Positions 4,405 through 64,000 of a DNA stretch of 64,000 nt are shown piece after piece. The DNA is from Natrialba swarupiae (GTDB taxonomy: Archaea > Halobacteriota > Halobacteria > Halobacteriales > Natrialbaceae): the NCBI RefSeq assembly GCF_008245225.1, contig NZ_VTAW01000004.1, positions 124,001 to 188,000 of the forward strand, given 5' to 3'. The notes below the pieces were generated by a model that was not told the DNA's origin, searched no databases, and was given only the letters and a program-made list of their open reading frames with translations. Every line of letters starts with the position of its first letter. Position 1 is the first letter of the stretch. The position numbers and the translations under genes were made by a program.

Positions 4405-4974
4405 CGTTCCAAACACCGACCGGTGAGTGATACCGACTGCGATGAGTCTGTCCCGGTCGATCGCCGACCGTTCTCCGATCGACCGCCAATCGTGCGGTCT
4501 GCTGTGGGTCCGTTCCGACGTATCCGCCGCATGGCTCGCGGGTACGCAGGTCCATCGGGACAGTGACTCGTATCGGAACAACCCGTATGAGCCCGAACAC
4601 TCGCCGTCGAGCCCATTCTTCGCAGGGGGTATCGTGGCCAGTCGAACGTGTCGCCGCGTATCTGGCGACACCGTGTGTCGATCCCCAGACGAGAAATCTC
4701 TGGACACCGACAATCAAAGAGGACTATTGCCACTCGCGGTGACTGTTCGAGCGTAGTGTAACTCGAGGTGGGCGCTCGATTCGGGGATACGGCTGGCAGC
4801 CGGTTTCCGTCGCTTGAGGACACTGTAACGACGAACGCGGCTCGGAATCGGGTGATGTGGGTGGTTCTGGCCGGGGGAGCTGAGCGTATCGGGCTCCGCA
4901 GGTCGGTACCGGATGATGCTCCGCTGGAGCTGATCCGCCAGAACAGGTAAGCGGTTCGCTCCGAACAGAGTGGT
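4405..4974. other. 570-base stretch without a convincing gene
   Basis: Several open frames exist on both strands (the longest plus-strand one is about 109 codons at 4427) but their residue make-up is Arg/Ser-rich and not haloarchaeal. None has a start with a nearby TATA element. No tRNA, clear hairpin or repeat was seen. It may be decayed coding sequence. Confidence 0.5.
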
Positions 4975-7780: not shown

Positions 7781-8254
7781 CTACTTCGCTCGCCTAACGG
7801 CTCGCTTCGTTGCGACAGGGGCTTCCAAGTCAGCTTGGAAGCGTACCGTGGCAGAGGCTTGGTCAGCACCGCTCGGTTCGAGTGCAGGTTCACAGACTGC
7901 GCCGAGGTCTCGATTCTGGATACCTTCGAGATTTCCGACCACGATAAGCGCGTTACGCTCTTTTGCTTCCTCCACGATGGCGCGAGAAATCTTGTGGAGG
8001 CGGTCGTTCACTCGACGGTACTCCTTTGCCTTGACCGACTGGAGCGTGTCGTAGGCTCCCTTCTCTTGCAGACGAGTGTGGAGGTCGTGATGATGACGGC
8101 GGATACGGCGAATCTCTTCGCCGTGGAACTCGGTGTTGGAAGATGACAACGCCACCGACGTTGCTACCCACCGAACACCGAGGTCCACACGGATAACACC
8201 GTCGTACCCCTCGCTGACTTCCACCTCTTGCCGAACCGTCAGGTGCGCGTATTA
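7781..8254 (-). pseudogene. tnpB: Truncated TnpB (IS200/IS605-type) remnant
   Basis: The minus-strand reading HLTVRQEVEVSEGYDG..IRVDLGVRWVATSVAL followed later by IVVGNLEGIQNRD matches the RuvC-like core of TnpB RNA-guided nucleases. An in-frame stop (TAA) lies directly upstream of this segment, so the N-terminal half is missing. After GIQNRD the sequence does not continue into the expected second catalytic acid and zinc-finger region, which suggests an internal deletion. The reading frame ends at 7781. No tnpA is present. A hairpin follows at 7821-7842. The copy cannot encode a working nuclease. Confidence 0.8.
7821..7842. repeat. Hairpin inside the tnpB remnant 3' end
   Basis: GCTTCCAA and TTGGAAGC form a perfect 8-bp stem around the loop GTCAGC. 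It lies at the 3' end of the tnpB remnant, where IS605-group elements carry right-end hairpins and the guide-RNA scaffold. Assignment to that structure is inference. Confidence 0.45.
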
Positions 8255-8365: not shown

Positions 8366-8391
8366 TCCATCGTTACAGCAGTCCGTACCAG
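8366..8391. repeat. Family A hairpin element, end fragment
   Basis: These 26 bases match one end of the 88-bp element at 30223-30310 at 23 of 26 positions. Only this end is recognisable; the rest is degenerate or replaced. It lies 15 nt beyond the stop of the lipoprotein gene, with the conserved end facing that gene, as in two other copies. Confidence 0.55.
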
Positions 8392-8406
8392 TCATCACAA
8401 ACCGGA

Positions 8407-9795
8407 TCAGTCGTCGTCTTCTTCCTCTTCGGCTGCATCCGCGGCGTAGGCTTCGATGTCGTCGTTCGCGAGCGGGAACCGGTCCATCGCTCCGTCTTCG
8501 CCGGGAAGCGTCCGCGTCTCGAGAACGCCCTCGTCGGCCTCGTCGACGCCCCCCCACTCCGCGTAGTAGTTGCCTAACTGTCGCTCCGGATCGTACAACG
8601 TGAGTTCCTCGGCGGGGAACGAGTTCAGATCGCCGGTATCGGTCGTGATTCGAACGTCACCTCCCTCGAAGACGTTCAGAAAGATCTCGGTCGCGGGCGC
8701 GCCGTCGATGATGTAGCTCGAGGACGACTCGAACCGGTTCAGTTCGAACCGGTCGATGAAGGCACCGTCCTCGTTCGACCGAACCGAACCGTTGATCTCA
8801 CACTCGGTGACGGTCGCCGAGTACTCGCTTCTGATGTCGATCGCCAGGTTCGAGTCGGGCTTCGAGTCGACGACGCAGCTTTCGACGTCGCCGCTTCCGG
8901 TGACGTTGATTCCCTGGCTCACTTCACAGTCACGCAAAAGCACGTTGTTCAGGCCCACTGTCCCCTCGATCGTACTGTCGACGACCCAGCCGGAGTTGCT
9001 CCGAAGATCGTTGTAGAACCGGCAGTCCTGAGCGTTGATAGACGGACCACGGACGACGTCGTAGAACCGGCACTCACTCGCCGACAGTTCGTGGACCAGT
9101 TCGTCGTTGAAGACGCTCTCGTGGGCGCTCGTCGGGCCGCCGAGCGATCCGTTGACGGTGCAGTAGTTCAGGTCCATCACTGACTCCTCGTAGGCCTCCC
9201 GCGTTTCGTCCTCGTACTCGTCCTCGACGTCCTCGTCGTACTCGTCGTACGCGACGAGACGGGAGTACTCGATCTCGTCGGGGATCTCGAGGGTCGCGTT
9301 CCAGAACCCCGGCGGGCCATCGCCCAGCAGGAAGTGAAGCGTCCCCCGGACGGTGAACGATCTGGCCTCGGGCATCACGATTTCGATCACGGTGTCCTCG
9401 TCGGACTCTCCGACGTAGGTGTACGTCTTGGTCAGGAACTCGCCCTCGATGTCCGCGTACTCGACGTCCGGCTGGACCGTGTACTTTCCCGACTCGATGC
9501 CGATGACGTCGCCGGAGTCGAGGGAATCGTACGCGTCCTGTAACGTCTCGTAGTCCGCCTCTGCACTCGAGCCAACGACGAAGTCGGGTTCGGGCGGTTC
9601 GGTCTCGTCGGTCTCCGCCGCTTCGTCTTCCGCTTCGTCGTCGCCGTTCCCGTTGCCGTTCCCGTTGCCGTTCCCGCCGCCATTGCCCTGATCGAGTCGG
9701 TCGCTGAGACACCCAGCCAGTCCAGCGACGGCACCACTCGATCCGAGTAAGAACGCTCGTCGCCGTAGCCCGTCCGTCTCCAGTAACTCACCCAT
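8407..9795 (-). CDS. Tat-exported lipoprotein with beta-helix-like domain
   Basis: The 462-residue precursor begins with a twin-arginine signal (RRRAFLLGSSG) and a lipobox LAGC with C29, so it should be lipid-anchored outside the cell. A Gly/Asn then Asp/Glu-rich linker follows. The mature part has short repeated strands typical of right-handed parallel beta-helices (ECRFYDV, DCRFYND, STIEGTV, DCEVSQGINV, ECEINGSV). These folds bind or cleave polysaccharides, but no catalytic residues are recognisable. The ATG at 9795 was chosen over 9921 because it places the RR motif near the N-terminus. Substrate unknown. Confidence 0.8.
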   Translation of the reverse strand: MGELLETDGLRRRAFLLGSSGAVAGLAGCLSDRLDQGNGGGNGNGNGNGNGDDEAEDEAAETDETEPPEPDFVVGSSAEADYETLQDAYDSLDSGDVIGIESGKYTVQPDVEYADIEGEFLTKTYTYVGESDEDTVIEIVMPEARSFTVRGTLHFLLGDGPPGFWNATLEIPDEIEYSRLVAYDEYDEDVEDEYEDETREAYEESVMDLNYCTVNGSLGGPTSAHESVFNDELVHELSASECRFYDVVRGPSINAQDCRFYNDLRSNSGWVVDSTIEGTVGLNNVLLRDCEVSQGINVTGSGDVESCVVDSKPDSNLAIDIRSEYSATVTECEINGSVRSNEDGAFIDRFELNRFESSSSYIIDGAPATEIFLNVFEGGDVRITTDTGDLNSFPAEELTLYDPERQLGNYYAEWGGVDEADEGVLETRTLPGEDGAMDRFPLANDDIEAYAADAAEEEEDDD

Positions 9796-10047
9796 AACTT
9801 CTCGAAGTAACGAATCAGTAATAAATGTTGTTCGTCCGGCGTACGGCTCGTCGAACTGGTTACCGTGTCGACGTATCACTGCTGTCGCTGATGGCTGTGG
9901 TCCCGTCGAGACTCGTGTCAACCGTCCACGAGACCGAACCGCTCGGACGGTGTAAAAAACGCATACCGTCGAAGGCGGCTGTCGACCGCCGGTGGCGGTA
10001 GTCGGACGGAACGTTCAACAGCGCGTCGGTCCAAGCGACTGCAGAGG

Positions 10048-17259: not shown

Positions 17260-17372
17260 GACCTCTCGTAGGGGACAAAGTCTCGAGTGGGGTTAAAGCT
17301 TTGTAGGCCGCTGAACCGGGCCTTCGACGTACCCCTATTCCCCGCCACGATCGAAGTGATCCTAGTACCCTC

Positions 17373-17438
17373 CCAAGCGTCGACTGATGAGCGAAATCAT
17401 GCGGTGGGTGTCGATTTCGCTCATCAGTTCAGGCTTGG
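17373..17438. repeat. Family C hairpin element, copy 2
   Basis: A 66-bp hairpin. The inner stem is perfect over 16 bp (17383-17398 with 17413-17428: ACTGATGAGCGAAATC and complement). Its loop is ATGCGGTGGGTGTC and an outer stem pairs CCAAGC/GCTTGG. It lies 7 nt past the stop codon of the surface-protein gene at 17446. The loop is identical to that at 33566 except for one base. Confidence 0.75.
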
Positions 17439-17445
17439 AACGCCA

Positions 17446-19917
17446 CTAGCACGTTCCTCCGGCTTCGCTCTGTTCGGTCCCCCCAACCCAGCTCTCCGTC
17501 GTGGTAACCTCGCCAGAGATGCTTGTCGCGTTCCCTTCGATAGTCGAGTCCGTGATCGTCACGTCATTAACTGCACAAACGTCTCCACCGACGCCCTCTC
17601 CGTCAATTTCGATCGTCCCATCCGACTCGAGGTCGCCCCCAATCCACACGGCCGAAGCCGAAATATCCTCGGTTGCGTAGACATCGCCGCCAACGTCTCC
17701 ACCGTTGATGTCGACCGATCCGCCTGACTCGAGATTGTTGTTGACGTCCGAATCGTCCATGTCGACGGATCCAGCCGAACGCAGATCTCCCTCGACACCC
17801 GACCCATCCATATCGATTGATTCGTCTGACTCGAGGGTCCCACCAATCCAGGCTGTGGAAAGTGATACAGACCCAACAGCATGGATATCACTGCCGACGT
17901 CCGAATCGTCGACATCGACTGAATCGCCCGATTCGAGGTGTCCTGAAATCCAACTCGAAGTAATTGATATCTCCTCAACGGCGTGAACGTCGGCTTCGAT
18001 ATCCGAATTATCGATGTCGACGGAACCGGTAGTGTAAATATCATCGGATTGCCAGTGGTCACTGAGCGTTACATCGCCGGCAGTCCAGTTCGGAATCTCG
18101 AGTTCGAACTGGTGGCTCTCATCGCCGACGTACAACGTCAGCGTCAGATCGTGCTCGCGCATATCAATCCGGTCACCGCGACCCTGGCCCTGCCCCTGGT
18201 CGGCTTCGAACTCCTCGGCTGTCACGTCGGTCATTTCGCCCGGCTCGAGCGTCGCGGACTCGTCGAGGCTGGCCGGTTCGCCGTCGATAGGGATCCGATC
18301 GTTTCCGCCCTTGTTCAGGGAGCCACCGACGGAGAACGTCACCTCGTTGCTTCCAGCGTTGTTGACGTTTTCCGCGTTCGAGGACGTCGAATCGAACGAA
18401 ATCGCGTCTATCTCGGCAGACTCCTCGCCGACGTTTCGAACGGTGAATACGACCTCGCTGTGGTCGTCTCCCGTTGTCCACGGCGAACCGACGACTTCCA
18501 GATTGCTCGGTTCCTCGTCGTCGCCGTTGTCGTCGTCGCCATCGTCACCGTTGTCGTCATCGCCATCGTCACCGTTGCCGTCATCGCCATTGTCCCCATC
18601 ATCACCGTCGTCGCCATCGTCCTCGTCGTCAATGACCTCGAACGACACGAGTGCGCGTGCCTCTTCGATGCCACGCGTGTCGGCCGCGCCGACGGACACC
18701 GTGTACGTCTCGCCGACCTCGAGTCCGCTGGTGTCGACCTCGATCGAGAGCTCGGCGTACGACATCTCGTTTCCGCCGCCCGACGGCTCGATCAACTCGA
18801 CGCTATCGCTTAGCGAACCGTCGGAGGGCGGATCGGTCATCTCGACCGTCTCACCCTGGGGCTCCCCCTCGAGGTCCCAGTCGGCTTCGAGGAGCGCAAC
18901 GCCGCCGCGGCGGTCGTCCGGATCACTCGGATCGCCGCGATTGTCGAGTTCGACTGTGACCGTCGCGTCGTCCCCTTTTTCGACCTCGTCGTCGACTGTT
19001 GGGCTGACTCGAGGGCCCGGCAGGGTTTCGTCGCCGCCAGTCGACGGGGCTCTGTCCTCGACCCCGCCGAACTCGCTTCCCGGATCGCCGTCGCCGACGG
19101 CTACCCTCGAGACCTGGAGGTCGTACTCGTCCCCGTCGAGTTCGATCGTGAGCGCTCCCGCCGTCTCGTCGTAGGAGTCGACAGTGACGTCCGACTCGTC
19201 GGCGAACGTCTCGTTCCACGCCGCGGGGGTCTCCGTCGGGAGCGTGATCGTGATCGGTCCACCGTCGGACTCGATCGGAACCGGATCCGTCGGCCCGTCG
19301 GCGACGGGATCGACGGTCACCGAGCCGGTCGACGTCGCCGAGAGGTTCCCCTCGAGTAAGACGACCGTGATCGAGTCGCCGTCGACGAGTCGCTGGTCGG
19401 CCCCCGGCAGGACGACAGTCGCATCCCCGAAGTCGTTGAACGCGAGGGAGTGTTCGATCCGTGTCGTCGGCGCGCCCCGGTACTCGTTGTACCCCGGTTC
19501 GTAGGACAGGGTTCTGGTGTCGTGTGTTCCGAGGACGAGCGCCTCGAGTTGGCTCTCGTCGTACTCACCGACGCGTTCGCTCACTTCGGCGTTCTCGATC
19601 TCGAGCGACCCGGCTTCGCTCGTCTCGAGGGTTCCCGCCGGTGGCGGTGGGTTCGCGGTGAGCGTGCGCGTCGGGTACTGGGTGCCGAGGGTCACCGTGG
19701 TCGGCTGAGAGCCTCCGCCCGCGCCGACCGCACGAACGGCGTTGCGAAGGTCCTGCATCTCGTCGTGAATCTCCTGGTTGTGTTCGATCTCGACGACCTC
19801 GTTCTCCGCGGGGACCGCGTTGACCTGGTAGAGCGCCAACGCCGAAAAGAGGATCGCGAGCAGTAACACTGCCCCGATCTGGACCGTAACGGCCCGGTCG
19901 CCCCCGCGACGCATCAT
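17446..19917 (-). CDS. Large pilin-like surface protein with 17-residue C-terminal repeats
   Basis: The 823-residue product starts with a single hydrophobic helix right after a basic N-terminus (GDRAVTVQIGAVLLLAILFS), as in haloarchaeal pilin-like surface proteins. Beta-rich segments follow. Then come an Asp/Gly/Asn linker (about residues 432-475) and a CARDB-like domain. Finally there are ten consecutive 17-residue repeats of the type SVDIDNSDIEADVHAVE, alternating with forms carrying SSWISGHLESG. These should make a beta-helix stack similar to bactofilin-type folds. It is 45 nt downstream of the BGTF gene, likely one operon. Confidence 0.75.
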   Translation of the reverse strand: MMRRGGDRAVTVQIGAVLLLAILFSALALYQVNAVPAENEVVEIEHNQEIHDEMQDLRNAVRAVGAGGGSQPTTVTLGTQYPTRTLTANPPPPAGTLETSEAGSLEIENAEVSERVGEYDESQLEALVLGTHDTRTLSYEPGYNEYRGAPTTRIEHSLAFNDFGDATVVLPGADQRLVDGDSITVVLLEGNLSATSTGSVTVDPVADGPTDPVPIESDGGPITITLPTETPAAWNETFADESDVTVDSYDETAGALTIELDGDEYDLQVSRVAVGDGDPGSEFGGVEDRAPSTGGDETLPGPRVSPTVDDEVEKGDDATVTVELDNRGDPSDPDDRRGGVALLEADWDLEGEPQGETVEMTDPPSDGSLSDSVELIEPSGGGNEMSYAELSIEVDTSGLEVGETYTVSVGAADTRGIEEARALVSFEVIDDEDDGDDGDDGDNGDDGNGDDGDDDNGDDGDDDNGDDEEPSNLEVVGSPWTTGDDHSEVVFTVRNVGEESAEIDAISFDSTSSNAENVNNAGSNEVTFSVGGSLNKGGNDRIPIDGEPASLDESATLEPGEMTDVTAEEFEADQGQGQGRGDRIDMREHDLTLTLYVGDESHQFELEIPNWTAGDVTLSDHWQSDDIYTTGSVDIDNSDIEADVHAVEEISITSSWISGHLESGDSVDVDDSDVGSDIHAVGSVSLSTAWIGGTLESDESIDMDGSGVEGDLRSAGSVDMDDSDVNNNLESGGSVDINGGDVGGDVYATEDISASAVWIGGDLESDGTIEIDGEGVGGDVCAVNDVTITDSTIEGNATSISGEVTTTESWVGGTEQSEAGGTC

Positions 19918-30222: not shown

Positions 30223-30310
30223 CTGATACGGTTTACTGTCAGTCGGTACCGGCGAACCCGCGATCCGTCTGCGGGTTTCGCCGGTCCATCGGTACAGCAA
30301 TCCGTATCAG
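30223..30310. repeat. Family A hairpin element, copy 1
   Basis: An 88-bp imperfect palindrome bounded by CTGATACGGTTTACTGT and its near-inverse ending CCGTATCAG. The inner stem pairs about GGCGAACCCGC with GCGGGTTTCGCC. On the minus strand it reads CTGATACGGATTGCTGTA first. The stop codon (TGA) of the zinc-ribbon gene at 30307 lies inside this terminal sequence. Confidence 0.8.
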
Positions 30311-30507
30311 GCGTTGTTCATGCGCTGACTCTCGCGGTTCCCACACCGCTGACATTCCCGAACGCGGTAGGGTTCGCGGGAGTACCGCGCGTTTTCCCCT
30401 TCGTCGCCCTCGGTTACGAGTTGGACCGTCACTTCGTGTAACGTATCCATCTCACACACTTCACATGGTTCGGTCATCCCGTTTGAGACGTCATTAGTCG
30501 TTGCCAT
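30307..30507 (-). CDS. Small zinc-ribbon protein
   Basis: The 66-residue product has two CxxC knuckles, PCEVCEM and ECQRCGN, on either side of an acidic strand region. It fits the very short haloarchaeal zinc beta-ribbon proteins (DUF7835-like; recalled, not verified). The start ATG at 30507 lies about 27 nt after a TATA-like TGATATATGATG, so it is likely leaderless. The last codon reads GCC and the TGA stop is supplied by the end of the family A element. Confidence 0.75.
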   Translation of the reverse strand: MATTNDVSNGMTEPCEVCEMDTLHEVTVQLVTEGDEGENARYSREPYRVRECQRCGNRESQRMNNA

Positions 30508-30671: not shown

Positions 30672-30756
30672 CTGATACGGATTGCTGCCCCTGTGTACTG
30701 GCGAACCCGCGACCTGTCTGCGGGTTCGCCGGTACCGACTGACTGCAAACCGTCTC
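30672..30756. repeat. Family A hairpin element, copy 2
   Basis: It begins CTGATACGGATTGCTG and ends in ACTGCAAACCGTCTCA. The inner stem GTACTGGCGAACCCGC / GCGGGTTCGCCGGTAC pairs over 16 bp with one G-T wobble. Its right end overlaps the family B element at 30741. Confidence 0.75.
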
Positions 30757-41340: not shown

Positions 41341-41538
41341 ATGACAACGCTCGCGTTCGACGACGACGGCGTCGACGTCGTCTACGAAGGAACCGAGTTC
41401 CGCCTCGAGCGGGACTTGATCGAGGAGGCAACGGAGAAATCCTACCACGACGTCACCGACCACGAAGTGTTGAAGATCGTCGCCGAACAGCCGAATCTAC
41501 AGGGCGAACCACGTCGAGTCGGCGACATCCTCGACTAA
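41341..41538 (+). CDS. Small acidic protein (DUF5800-like)
   Basis: The 65-residue product has one compact domain: LAFDDDGVDVVYEGTEFRLE, then the helix RDLIEEATEKSYHDVTDHEV, then LKIVAEQPNLQGEPRRVGDI. It resembles the DUF5800 group (from memory). No cysteines and no membrane segment. It stands as a single gene with no informative neighbour. Confidence 0.75.
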   Translation: MTTLAFDDDGVDVVYEGTEFRLERDLIEEATEKSYHDVTDHEVLKIVAEQPNLQGEPRRVGDILD

Positions 41539-41598
41539 TTCAGTTTCCTGTCCGTCTGTGTCGCCGAACCGCCACACGGGTGGCGAAGCCGTCCGTCG

Positions 41599-42141
41599 TC
41601 ACGCGTCGTCGCTCTCGTAGCGTTCCGCCGCCGACTGGAATCCCAGTTCATCGAACTCGCGCCCGCGTCGGTTCTCGAGTGCTGCGATCGCTTCCGGATC
41701 GGGGGCGACGTCGTCGGTGATCCTCGCCCACGAGTTGTGGACTTTCGCGTGACACCACCGACAGAGGTAGACGGTGATCTCGTGGCTCAACTGTTCGCCG
41801 TCGCGGGCGTACGAGAGGTGGTGTTCCTCGAGCAGTGGACGCTCCTCTGACTGGGCCATCCGTTTTTCCTCGAGCCCACAGCGGACACACTCCCGGTCGC
41901 GATTGCGCGAGCGAAAGTGCGGACACTCGCTCCACGTTGGATCCGACTCGGCGTCGGGGTCCGGATCGACGATCGGACAGGCGTACCCCTCCTGTGCACG
42001 CTCTCGAGCGAACGCCGGATCGTGCTCGTAGTGGTCGTAGGCGTACCGACACTGTCCGTCGCCGGTGAGATAGTCACAGAGGCCGGCGAACTCGTAGGGG
42101 TCGTCGACCCCGACGGCCGTCCCGTTCGGCGTTCGCTCCAT
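41599..42141 (-). CDS. HNH-like zinc protein
   Basis: The 180-residue product has several cysteine pairs (CDYLTGDGQCRYA, CPHF, CVRCGLEEKR) and a C-terminal HNH-like pattern: EEHHLSYA, then ITVYLCRWCHAKVHNS. The His/Cys arrangement suggests a beta-beta-alpha-metal nuclease fold. Activity is not established and the family (DUF7097-like) is from memory. It is divergent from the transducer gene, which starts 99 nt away. Confidence 0.75.
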   Translation of the reverse strand: MERTPNGTAVGVDDPYEFAGLCDYLTGDGQCRYAYDHYEHDPAFARERAQEGYACPIVDPDPDAESDPTWSECPHFRSRNRDRECVRCGLEEKRMAQSEERPLLEEHHLSYARDGEQLSHEITVYLCRWCHAKVHNSWARITDDVAPDPEAIAALENRRGREFDELGFQSAAERYESDDA

Positions 42142-47949: not shown

Positions 47950-48013
47950 TAATCGGACTCGCCGTCGCCGGGAACCCGTTCGATTCCGTCAGCGTCGTAG
48001 CGTTGGAACCGGC

Positions 48014-48200
48014 GGCTTTAAGTTACGGCTGTTCGATAGGGAGAAGTACATGCCACGAGATTCGTTCTCAACGCCGGACGAGGATAGAGGAAGTCGGGGC
48101 AACCCGGCTGGGCGTGAAATTCCGCGACGACACTGATCGCAGTTCATCACTCTTGCCTGTACAACACTCCGCCGACCAGACGATTCCATCCGACCGTACA
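48014..48200 (+). promoter_or_regulatory. Leader region of the LeuA/CimA gene with a short ORF
   Basis: A TATA-like GCTTTAAGTTA (about 48014-48024) lies about 30 nt before an ATG at 48050. That ATG opens a 28-residue ORF (MPRDSFSTPDEDRGSRG, ending at the TGA at 48136) in a frame different from the synthase. The synthase GTG is at 48201. The ORF has no leucine or isoleucine run, so classical attenuation is not obvious, and it may not be translated. Confidence 0.4.
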
Positions 48201-52088: not shown

Positions 52089-52290
52089 GGATCGAGCGAC
52101 ACCGAACGCACACAAATAGCTTGGCTGGGAAGCGCCAGGCCCCCGTCAGCCGGTCTGGTGTCCGTCAGTTCCAGCCCACTCGCGACCCCTGGGGCGGTCA
52201 CGCCGGGGCAGTGGGCCACCGCTCCGTATCGGCCCGCGTCGCCCTCTCGGGTCGGTCGGGACTGCGGTTACGGAACGGATCTTGGTCCCG

Positions 52291-52710: not shown

Positions 52711-53415
52711 ATGTCCCGTTCAGTCGCCCGACGGATTCGGGACCGGTTCGACCCTGGACGCGTCGTCGTCGCCGTACTCGTCGTGGCCGCCCTCTCCCTG
52801 CCCGGTCTCGAGGTATCCTCGACCGACGTCGTCCGTACGGTCGTGGCTGTCGCCGTCATCGCCCCACTGTTCGGATACCTCGTAGAGCGCTCCGGCGTCG
52901 ACATCGACCTCGGTCTCCTCGTAATCGCGCTGGGAGTGGTCGTCGGCTGGGGAGGGTACGGCCACCTTCAGGACGGCGTCGGCTGGCTCGGCTGGCTCCT
53001 GCTCGCGCTCGGCGGATGGCTCTGTCTCGAGGGACTCGATCGGTTCGTTCGTGACGATAGAACCGACGACGCCGGTGGTGGTCGAATAGACGACGTGAGA
53101 GCCACGTCCGACGAGACGGACGACCTCCCGAGAGCCGAACTCGCGAAACTGAACGAGTGCAACTGCCGGCTGGCCGAGACGCCCCGAGACGCCGACCGTC
53201 CACTGTCCGCCGACGAGATCCGATCCCGCGCGAACCTCACTCCGGCAGAGTTCGACCGCCTGCGCGAGATCCACGGCGAGTCGGGTCCAATCGACCGCCT
53301 GGGGACCGGCTACAGACTCGACGAGCGGGAGATGGGTCTCACGGGCATCCTGCGGACGATCGGACGACGGCTTCTCCGGCCGGTTCGCGTGCTTCGACCG
53401 GGGCGGCGAGCCTGA
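52711..53415 (+). CDS. Membrane protein with C-terminal soluble domain
   Basis: The 234-residue product has about four hydrophobic helices in the first 115 residues (VVVAVLVVAALSLPGLEV, LLVIALGVVVGWGGYGHL and GWLLLALGGWLCLEGLDRFV). A charged domain with a possible helix-turn-helix-like LSADEIRSRANLTPAEFDRL follows. The stop codon TGA is formed by the left end of the family A element (GCC TGA TACGG). Start ATG 52711 preferred to TTG 52693. Confidence 0.7.
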   Translation: MSRSVARRIRDRFDPGRVVVAVLVVAALSLPGLEVSSTDVVRTVVAVAVIAPLFGYLVERSGVDIDLGLLVIALGVVVGWGGYGHLQDGVGWLGWLLLALGGWLCLEGLDRFVRDDRTDDAGGGRIDDVRATSDETDDLPRAELAKLNECNCRLAETPRDADRPLSADEIRSRANLTPAEFDRLREIHGESGPIDRLGTGYRLDEREMGLTGILRTIGRRLLRPVRVLRPGRRA

Positions 53416-53498
53416 TACGGATTGCTGTAACTGTGTACCGCCGCGCCCGGGACCCGTTCTCCGGGAGCGGCGGTACTGACTTACAGTAAACCGTATGA
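53412..53498. repeat. Family A hairpin element, copy 3
   Basis: It begins CTGATACGGATTGCTGTAA and ends TTACAGTAAACCGTATGA. The central stem pairs GTACCGCCGC with GCGGCGGTAC and CCCGG with CCGGG. The stem sequence differs from that of the copies at 30 kb but base pairing is kept. The stop codon of the upstream gene lies inside it. Confidence 0.8.
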
Positions 53499-57129: not shown

Positions 57130-59106
<1,977 letters not shown>

Positions 59107-59127
59107 GTTCCGTTCACTCAATGCACA

Positions 59128-59145
59128 ACCGTGATAGTAAAACTG
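59128..59145 (-). promoter_or_regulatory. Promoter of acs copy 1
   Basis: Minus-strand GTTTTACTATCACGG contains the TATA-like element, about 31 nt before the ATG at 59106, for a nearly leaderless transcript. The rest of 59107-59322 holds no gene. Confidence 0.45.
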
Positions 59146-59322
59146 ACCTCTAGTTGTACAAAATCGATCGCGCTGCCGGGCCAGGCGGGACACCGTTCGC
59201 CGACCATACTCGCCGCAGAATCGCCGGCTATCGCTCGAGACGTTTTCTATCGCGAGATACCACGGGTACAGTCGGTGACGAACGGTCATCGAACTCTAGA
59301 CGGTTAGTTCCGCAACGGGCCG

Positions 59323-61695: not shown

Positions 61696-63672
<1,977 letters not shown>

Positions 63673-63682
63673 ATCTCGTTCC

Positions 63683-63697
63683 GACCGAAGTCGGTCA
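63683..63697. promoter_or_regulatory. Inverted repeat in the upstream region of acs copy 2
   Basis: GACCGA-AG-TCGGTC lies between the TATA element and the ATG of acs copy 2. It could be an operator or a 5' hairpin. Confidence 0.35.
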
Positions 63698-63776
63698 GCG
63701 GAATAAACGTTCCTGCACCGGTGAATCGGATGCCGACTCGCCAGCGGAGGGAGATCTCCGGTCGAGCGACTCCGAA

Positions 63777-64000
63777 TCAGTCGAATCGGAGGAACTGTCG
63801 GTCGTCGTCGCGATCTCTGACCGCCGGATAGACGACGAGGAGGTTCCCGTCGACCCGCTCGGAGAGGCGCCTCGGCAGCGCCTCGAGTTCCGGGTCCCAC
63901 CCCATCGTCCCCCGCCGCGCCGACAGCGTCACGAAGAGGCTGGTCTCGTCGACGTCGTCTCGAAGCCGATCGAGCGCCTGGGTCCAGTCCGCGTCGCGCT
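63777..64000 (-). CDS. C-terminal fragment, probably of a transporter or regulator with a UspA-like tail
   Basis: The visible 74 codons end DRQFLRFD and read RDADWTQALDRLRDDVDETS, LFVTLSARRGTMGWDPELEA, LPRRLSERVDGNLLVVYPAV. This resembles the cytoplasmic C-terminal tails of haloarchaeal cation/proton antiporters that end in NLLVVYP. The rest lies outside the window, so the assignment is tentative. Confidence 0.4.
   Translation of the reverse strand, partial: RDADWTQALDRLRDDVDETSLFVTLSARRGTMGWDPELEALPRRLSERVDGNLLVVYPAVRDRDDDRQFLRFD

Follow-up and report, generated by a model that had tools for sequence, protein, structure and literature searches.

The window analysed here, a stretch of haloarchaeal DNA of 64,000 nt, harbours copies of a dispersed 80-nt element that, with a probability of roughly 90%, is a non-autonomous MITE-like transposon whose palindromic TNA target overlaps TGA stop codons and whose target duplication preserves the end of the encoded protein. 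In the mechanism that we propose, a putative transposase acting in trans would cut a palindromic target centred on TNA (CGWC-TSA-GWCG), and gap repair would leave TNA on either side of the insert. Haloarchaeal gene ends of the form ...GAC TGA or similar would present half of this target. Insertion there would duplicate the TGA, such that the original TGA would still end the frame and the protein would remain unchanged. Copies inside or before genes would mostly be lost by selection, and copies on or just behind stops would persist.

A palindromic element with a 3-bp target duplication

The element is 80 nt long, near-palindromic and without coding capacity, and its ends read TACGG[A/T]TT[G/A]CTGT and ACAG[T/C]AA[A/T]CCGTA. 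Terminal inverted repeats are present: in an alignment of 45 copies, which had been selected for intact ends, TACGG was invariant at both ends of all 45, and the outer stem pairs. The consensus hairpin folds at -37.6 kcal/mol, with compensatory changes at 12 of 26 pairs. About 435 genome matches to the end motif were counted versus three for a reversed control, corresponding to about 200 element copies in the 4.2-Mb haloarchaeal genome. Within 2.03 Mb of four congeners (G000 to G003), a pooled search identified 145 copies at E<0.01 (matches with E>0.01 were left out of the counts), 104 of them with two good ends; G000 yielded 65 copies when searched alone and 63 in the pooled search, as the E-value varies with the amount searched. 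Insertions can be nested or in tandem: within a called gene of G000, two copies overlap or adjoin each other at C26:25594-25736 (L060).

Of the 117 Natrialbaceae genomes sampled, 93 matched a covariance model of the element (E<=1e-3); across the class, 147 of the 341 genomes sampled did so (E<=1e-6). Copy numbers from these searches are lower bounds, since only limited candidates were scored per genome. Several genomes, including G113 and G076, contain equal top-scoring copies; these equal scores suggest recent spread, and we infer that the element may be mobile at present. No Rfam family matched at the elements, and the element was not found in phage records.

Flanking triplets were compared in the 104 two-ended copies, excluding the 41 of 145 with fewer than four of the five terminal bases at either end. 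Identical triplets flanked 62 of the 104, compared to a mean of 29 and a maximum of 43 in 2,000 shuffles. Where TGA or TCA (TSA) stood on both sides, the flanks were identical in 57 of 61 copies (34 TCA/TCA and 23 TGA/TGA, with 3 TGA/TCA and 1 TCA/TGA). All ten top-scoring loci of the family search had equal flanks, and in another genus (g25, genome G113) 20 of 24 two-ended copies carried identical TGA or TCA flanks. Because TGA and TCA each occurred with both element orientations, the flanking triplet belongs to the target and not to the element. The element makes a 3-bp TNA target duplication, and insertion sites away from stops yielded the palindromic consensus CGWC-TSA-GWCG. On the basis of its short, non-coding sequence, inverted ends, target duplication, many dispersed copies and filled and empty sites between relatives, the element is MITE-like.

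Three good copies lie in the window. The first (30227..30306, minus strand) adjoins with its A end (TACGGATTGCTGT) the stop of a zinc-ribbon gene (30307..30507, minus strand), a 66-residue protein ending MNNA-stop with a full-length Pfam match to DUF7835 (PF25205; E=4.5e-29). The TGA stop of this gene (30307..30309, minus strand) is the near target-site copy, and the far flank (30224-30226, minus strand) reads TCA, rendering the duplication imperfect. The second copy (53416..53495, plus strand) likewise adjoins with its A end the stop of an open reading frame (ORF) for a predicted multi-helix membrane protein of 234 residues (52711..53415, plus strand); its duplication is perfect, with the TGA stop (53413..53415, plus strand) as the near and a further TGA (53496..53498, plus strand) as the far target-site copy. 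The third (30676..30754, plus strand) is intergenic, off any stop and flanked by TGA/TCA, making two of the three good window copies with unequal TGA/TCA flanks. An inversion between the copies at 30227-30306 and 30676-30754, considered as a source of this pattern, mismatches their actual flanks. Among copies on stop codons generally, the far triplet has often drifted (TGA to CGA in nine cases); the far TNA copy is free to decay because the near copy stays as the stop. According to the preliminary description, the genes at 30307-30507 and 52711-53415 both end GCC TGA TACGGATTGC, with the TGA inside the terminal sequence of the element. The shared ending stood, and the TGA proved to be target duplication rather than element sequence.

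Further decayed or weak copies were detected on the minus strand at 4493..4572 (40 bits; flanks TCG/TCG; preceding gene end 88 nt away), at 52149..52228 (weak, 23 bits; between genes) and at 41539..41619 (weak, 18 bits, below threshold in the pooled four-congener search). The last lies directly behind the TAA stop of the gene 41341-41538, whose congener orthologue (97% identical) has the same TAA end without an element. A degenerate terminal fragment (...ACAGCAGTCCGTA; 8366..8387, minus strand), earlier placed 15 nt behind a gene, indeed lies behind the gene 8407-9921 on the minus strand, at a distance of 19 nt from its stop (8387 to 8407), and is weak and outside the E<0.01 matches. A TnpB-type (IS200/IS605) protein remnant is located near this decayed end (7781-8224, minus strand). 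Also present in the window are another hairpin outside the 80-nt family (17362-17449; 37-nt inverted arms, 81% complementary, with CTAG at both termini), an Rfam leuA-Halobacteria cis-regulatory RNA (48073-48125; 70.7 bits) just upstream of a gene called at 48003/48201-49685, and large diverged tandem gene copies (57130-59289 and 61696-63900; 71-79% identity over repeated stretches).

Coincidence with stop codons

Across the four congeners, 62 of the 145 copies stood exactly on the stop codon of the neighbouring gene (G000, 28/63; G001, 17/39; G002, 8/22; G003, 9/21), whereas each of the other positions between -79 and +60 nt accounted for four copies at most. The stops involved were 60 TGA, 2 TAA and 0 TAG, and TAG ends about one-fifth of genes. 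Expressed per stop, 60 of 1,275 TGA stops in the sampled congeners (~5%) carried an element. A similar picture emerged in genus g25 (G113), where 12 of 30 copies were on TGA stops. This association of element and stop is far beyond chance.

Gene calling itself could in principle generate such a coincidence, if spurious long ORFs in GC-rich DNA ended at TGAs of the element. One locus was indeed miscalled: at 52711-53415 the gene caller favoured an antisense ORF, and the gene was defined manually, its translation being clearly that of a multi-helix membrane protein; it counts as one stop case. It had no family match, no relative in three congeners and no named relative in the genome collection. 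An artefact would, however, hit all three reading frames alike, and the ends of DUF7835 and other genes are shared by their orthologues. Moreover, independent NCBI/GenBank annotation places the element exactly at an annotated stop in four of seven annotated plasmid places, behind a glycosyltransferase and an archease gene in Natrinema thermotolerans, an FAD-dependent oxidoreductase gene in Natrialba magadii and a glycosyltransferase gene in Natronorubrum daqingense; in the remaining three, 14, about 43 and about 190 nt separate the element from the stop. A further plasmid match (H6) was left out of this tally, its record being unannotated. We consider an artefactual origin hardly credible.

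Gene ends with and without the element

That the TGA touches the element and that genes end there would also be expected if the element truncated the 3' part of genes by supplying a new stop, as proposed in the preliminary description. We compared orthologues, defined as reciprocal best pairs with those below 50% identity or 60% coverage dropped, and obtained 36 pairs from 24 genes in which just one member had the element. The protein ended at the same residue in 29 pairs, differed by one to three residues in five and by at least four in two; control pairs without elements shared the end residue in 285 of 436. At C26:112423-113433, the protein is two residues longer than its element-free orthologues. 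The stops of element-free orthologues (24 TGA, 6 TAG and 5 TAA; n=35) were distributed similarly to those of controls (376 TGA, 90 TAG and 58 TAA; n=524).

The DUF7835 family illustrates the same point at a single locus. All 26 named relatives stop at residue 66, with TGA, TAA or TAG, and in 21 of the 26 unrelated sequence follows directly 3' of the stop; element-free paralogues in congeners have the same protein end. Natribaculum breve carries a full element at this stop with TGA on both sides, Natrarchaeobius chitinivorans a short element remnant behind it, and three Natrialba species a different, 108-nt element. In the congener G002 the element at the DUF7835 stop is in opposite orientation, which points to a probable independent insertion. 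As element-free orthologues mostly end at the same residue, the TGA next to an inserted copy belongs to the gene, and a second TGA stands at the far end of the insert. Judged from these comparisons, no new stop comes from the element, which instead inserts at an existing TGA and regenerates it. Truncation would further predict genes that run into the element in the two remaining frames, but only 14 gene ends were counted between offsets -79 and -1, compared to 62 at offset 0, and the TNA is target duplication, not element sequence. We therefore regard truncation as very improbable; the proposal that the element supplies the stop is refuted by DUF7835 relatives that lack it and end at the same position in unrelated sequence, and by most of the other genes compared.

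An alternative raised in the same description, a conserved 3'-end or termination module of the genes that the element follows, gains some appeal from the strong hairpin with its compensatory changes and from the concentration of copies at and just behind gene ends. Compensatory changes are, however, also expected from mobilisation of palindromes, and a target duplication is present. Archaeal terminators generally need a U-run, which neither end of the element has. Orientation is not fixed, the end facing the gene at stops being A in 32 and B in 30 cases; most orthologues are without the element, its presence varying among them; and many copies are not behind any gene. Element scores at stops were no higher than those of other intergenic copies (p=0.67). 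A termination module is thus improbable. The absence of higher scores at stops also means that there is no sign of co-option for function.

Returning to the transposon reading, we asked how far site preference and selection explain the stop excess. GAC preceded TGA in 15 of 60 element-bearing stops versus 107 of 1,215 other TGA genes, and stops are targeted partly because many genes end in sequence similar to the target motif. An earlier suggestion of insertion at gene ends with a preferred GCCTGA target was supported as to the gene-end preference; the target is instead CGWC-TSA-GWCG, with GAC TGA at 15 and GCC TGA at only 7 of the 60 stops. Copies were also scarce where insertion would do damage: for every 1,000 candidate TSA sites there were 49 at stops, 24 and 6 in the 100 nt downstream and upstream, respectively, and 0.35 within coding regions. 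From the stop to 100 nt downstream, 58-63% of copies were on stops, where weighting the sites by the motif predicts 37-40%; for the 58-59% observed among all copies, p was between about 1e-4 and 1e-5, and the excess persisted among high-scoring copies only (61% versus 40% expected, p=0.002). Sequence preference and selection account for most of the stop excess, leaving about 1.4- to 1.7-fold; as no more than 26 to 48 sites were available to derive the target motif, its imperfection may account for part of this remainder.

The same remainder, beyond what site preference and downstream position predict, could alternatively reflect secondary retention, in which the hairpin behind the stop would tune translation or mRNA stability. 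There is precedent in Escherichia coli, where REPs that follow a stop codon by no more than 15 nt are reported to have such effects (PMC12306157). Against it, stop copies are not better conserved, and the element is common to both orthologues at the same stop in only 10 of 46 directional orthologue rows. We consider this possibility unlikely.

Relation to known elements and implications

The putative transposase was sought in several ways. Between matching ends, none was found in the sampled stretches, and equally flanked ends spaced at 0.3-4 kb turned out in every case to belong to two separate 80-nt copies or to a weak chance pairing. None of the 60 DDE_Tnp_1 loci read, of 118 matches (55 + 63), carried the element's ends, and no DDE_Tnp_4 was present in four element-rich genomes. 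Genome G079 contains at least 40 element copies and one degraded DDE_Tnp_1 match only.

A second family appeared at the same locus in Natrialba. Behind the DUF7835 stop (L114, L115 and L117) lies a 108-nt MITE with ends TACTGCCGGACAAAA and a sequence unlike that of the 80-nt family. In N. taiwanensis (L248-L266), equal TNA flanks, including TAA/TAA, border eight of ten position-examined copies of this MITE, and five of the ten are on stop codons. The ends of both families begin with TAC, and because of this shared start one transposase type may serve both. A more tentative and, in our view, rather doubtful extension is that short haloarchaeal transposons of at least two unrelated families (TACGG... 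and TACTGCCGG...) would share a putative TNA-duplicating transposase and actively favour stops beyond local sequence and selection. If true, homing to stop codons would have evolved as a safe-haven strategy, with the duplication rebuilding the stop.

Among known transposons, the IS5-type and PIF-Harbinger groups make 3-bp TNA duplications. The present element agrees with them in duplication length and form; its ends start with TAC, and the DDE_Tnp_1 loci read included no matching one. Safe-haven transposons usually insert near genes, for example, tRNA genes, or behind glmS; Tn7 reads this one gene and inserts behind it. The gene end as a safe haven is common to both systems, whereas here many unrelated genes and a short target including the stop are used. 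REPs are palindromes of 20-40 nt that require a Y1 (RAYT) transposase and, to our knowledge, make no target duplication; REP/RAYT identity was rejected on the 80-nt length and the target duplication.

Comparison literature consisted of partial texts of PMC3119063, PMC10969869, PMC12306157, PMC2229807 and PMC7230728. As far as these texts go, REP/BIME sequences of enterobacteria are likewise palindromes that abound outside genes, and some stand no more than 15 nt from a stop codon (PMC12306157), whereas the present element is 80 nt long, duplicates its target and is placed exactly on the stop rather than near it. The SMRs of Haloquadratum walsbyi are described in the text consulted as non-coding sequences of ~110 nt with inverted ends unrelated to known transposons, a strong target preference in several families and no described target duplication (PMC3119063). 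They resemble our element in their short length, inverted ends, lack of coding capacity and strong target preference, but not in the target duplication. MITEs have in common with it a short, non-coding sequence with terminal inverted repeats, many copies, target duplication and a presumed trans-acting transposase (PMC10969869 and PMC3119063, in part). In contrast to them, our searches recovered no transposon that carries these ends, and the TNA target coincides with TGA stops in >40% of copies. The consulted portions of these two papers, the latter covering Haloquadratum MITEs, do not mention a stop-codon coincidence. No description of such a stop-codon-placed element was found in the open-access literature, and a literal search there for four 11-mer end sequences gave no archaeal paper among the matches listed.

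Through its target, this MITE-like element gains a safe haven on the stop codons themselves, where a 3-bp duplication leaves the insertion invisible to the protein, and the apparent benefit looks like spreading without gene breakage. With copies at ~5% of TGA stops, many gene ends gain a strong hairpin directly behind the stop, providing a natural experiment in archaea on how such hairpins affect translation termination, mRNA decay and readthrough. A conserved gene-end hairpin in haloarchaea need not be a terminator.
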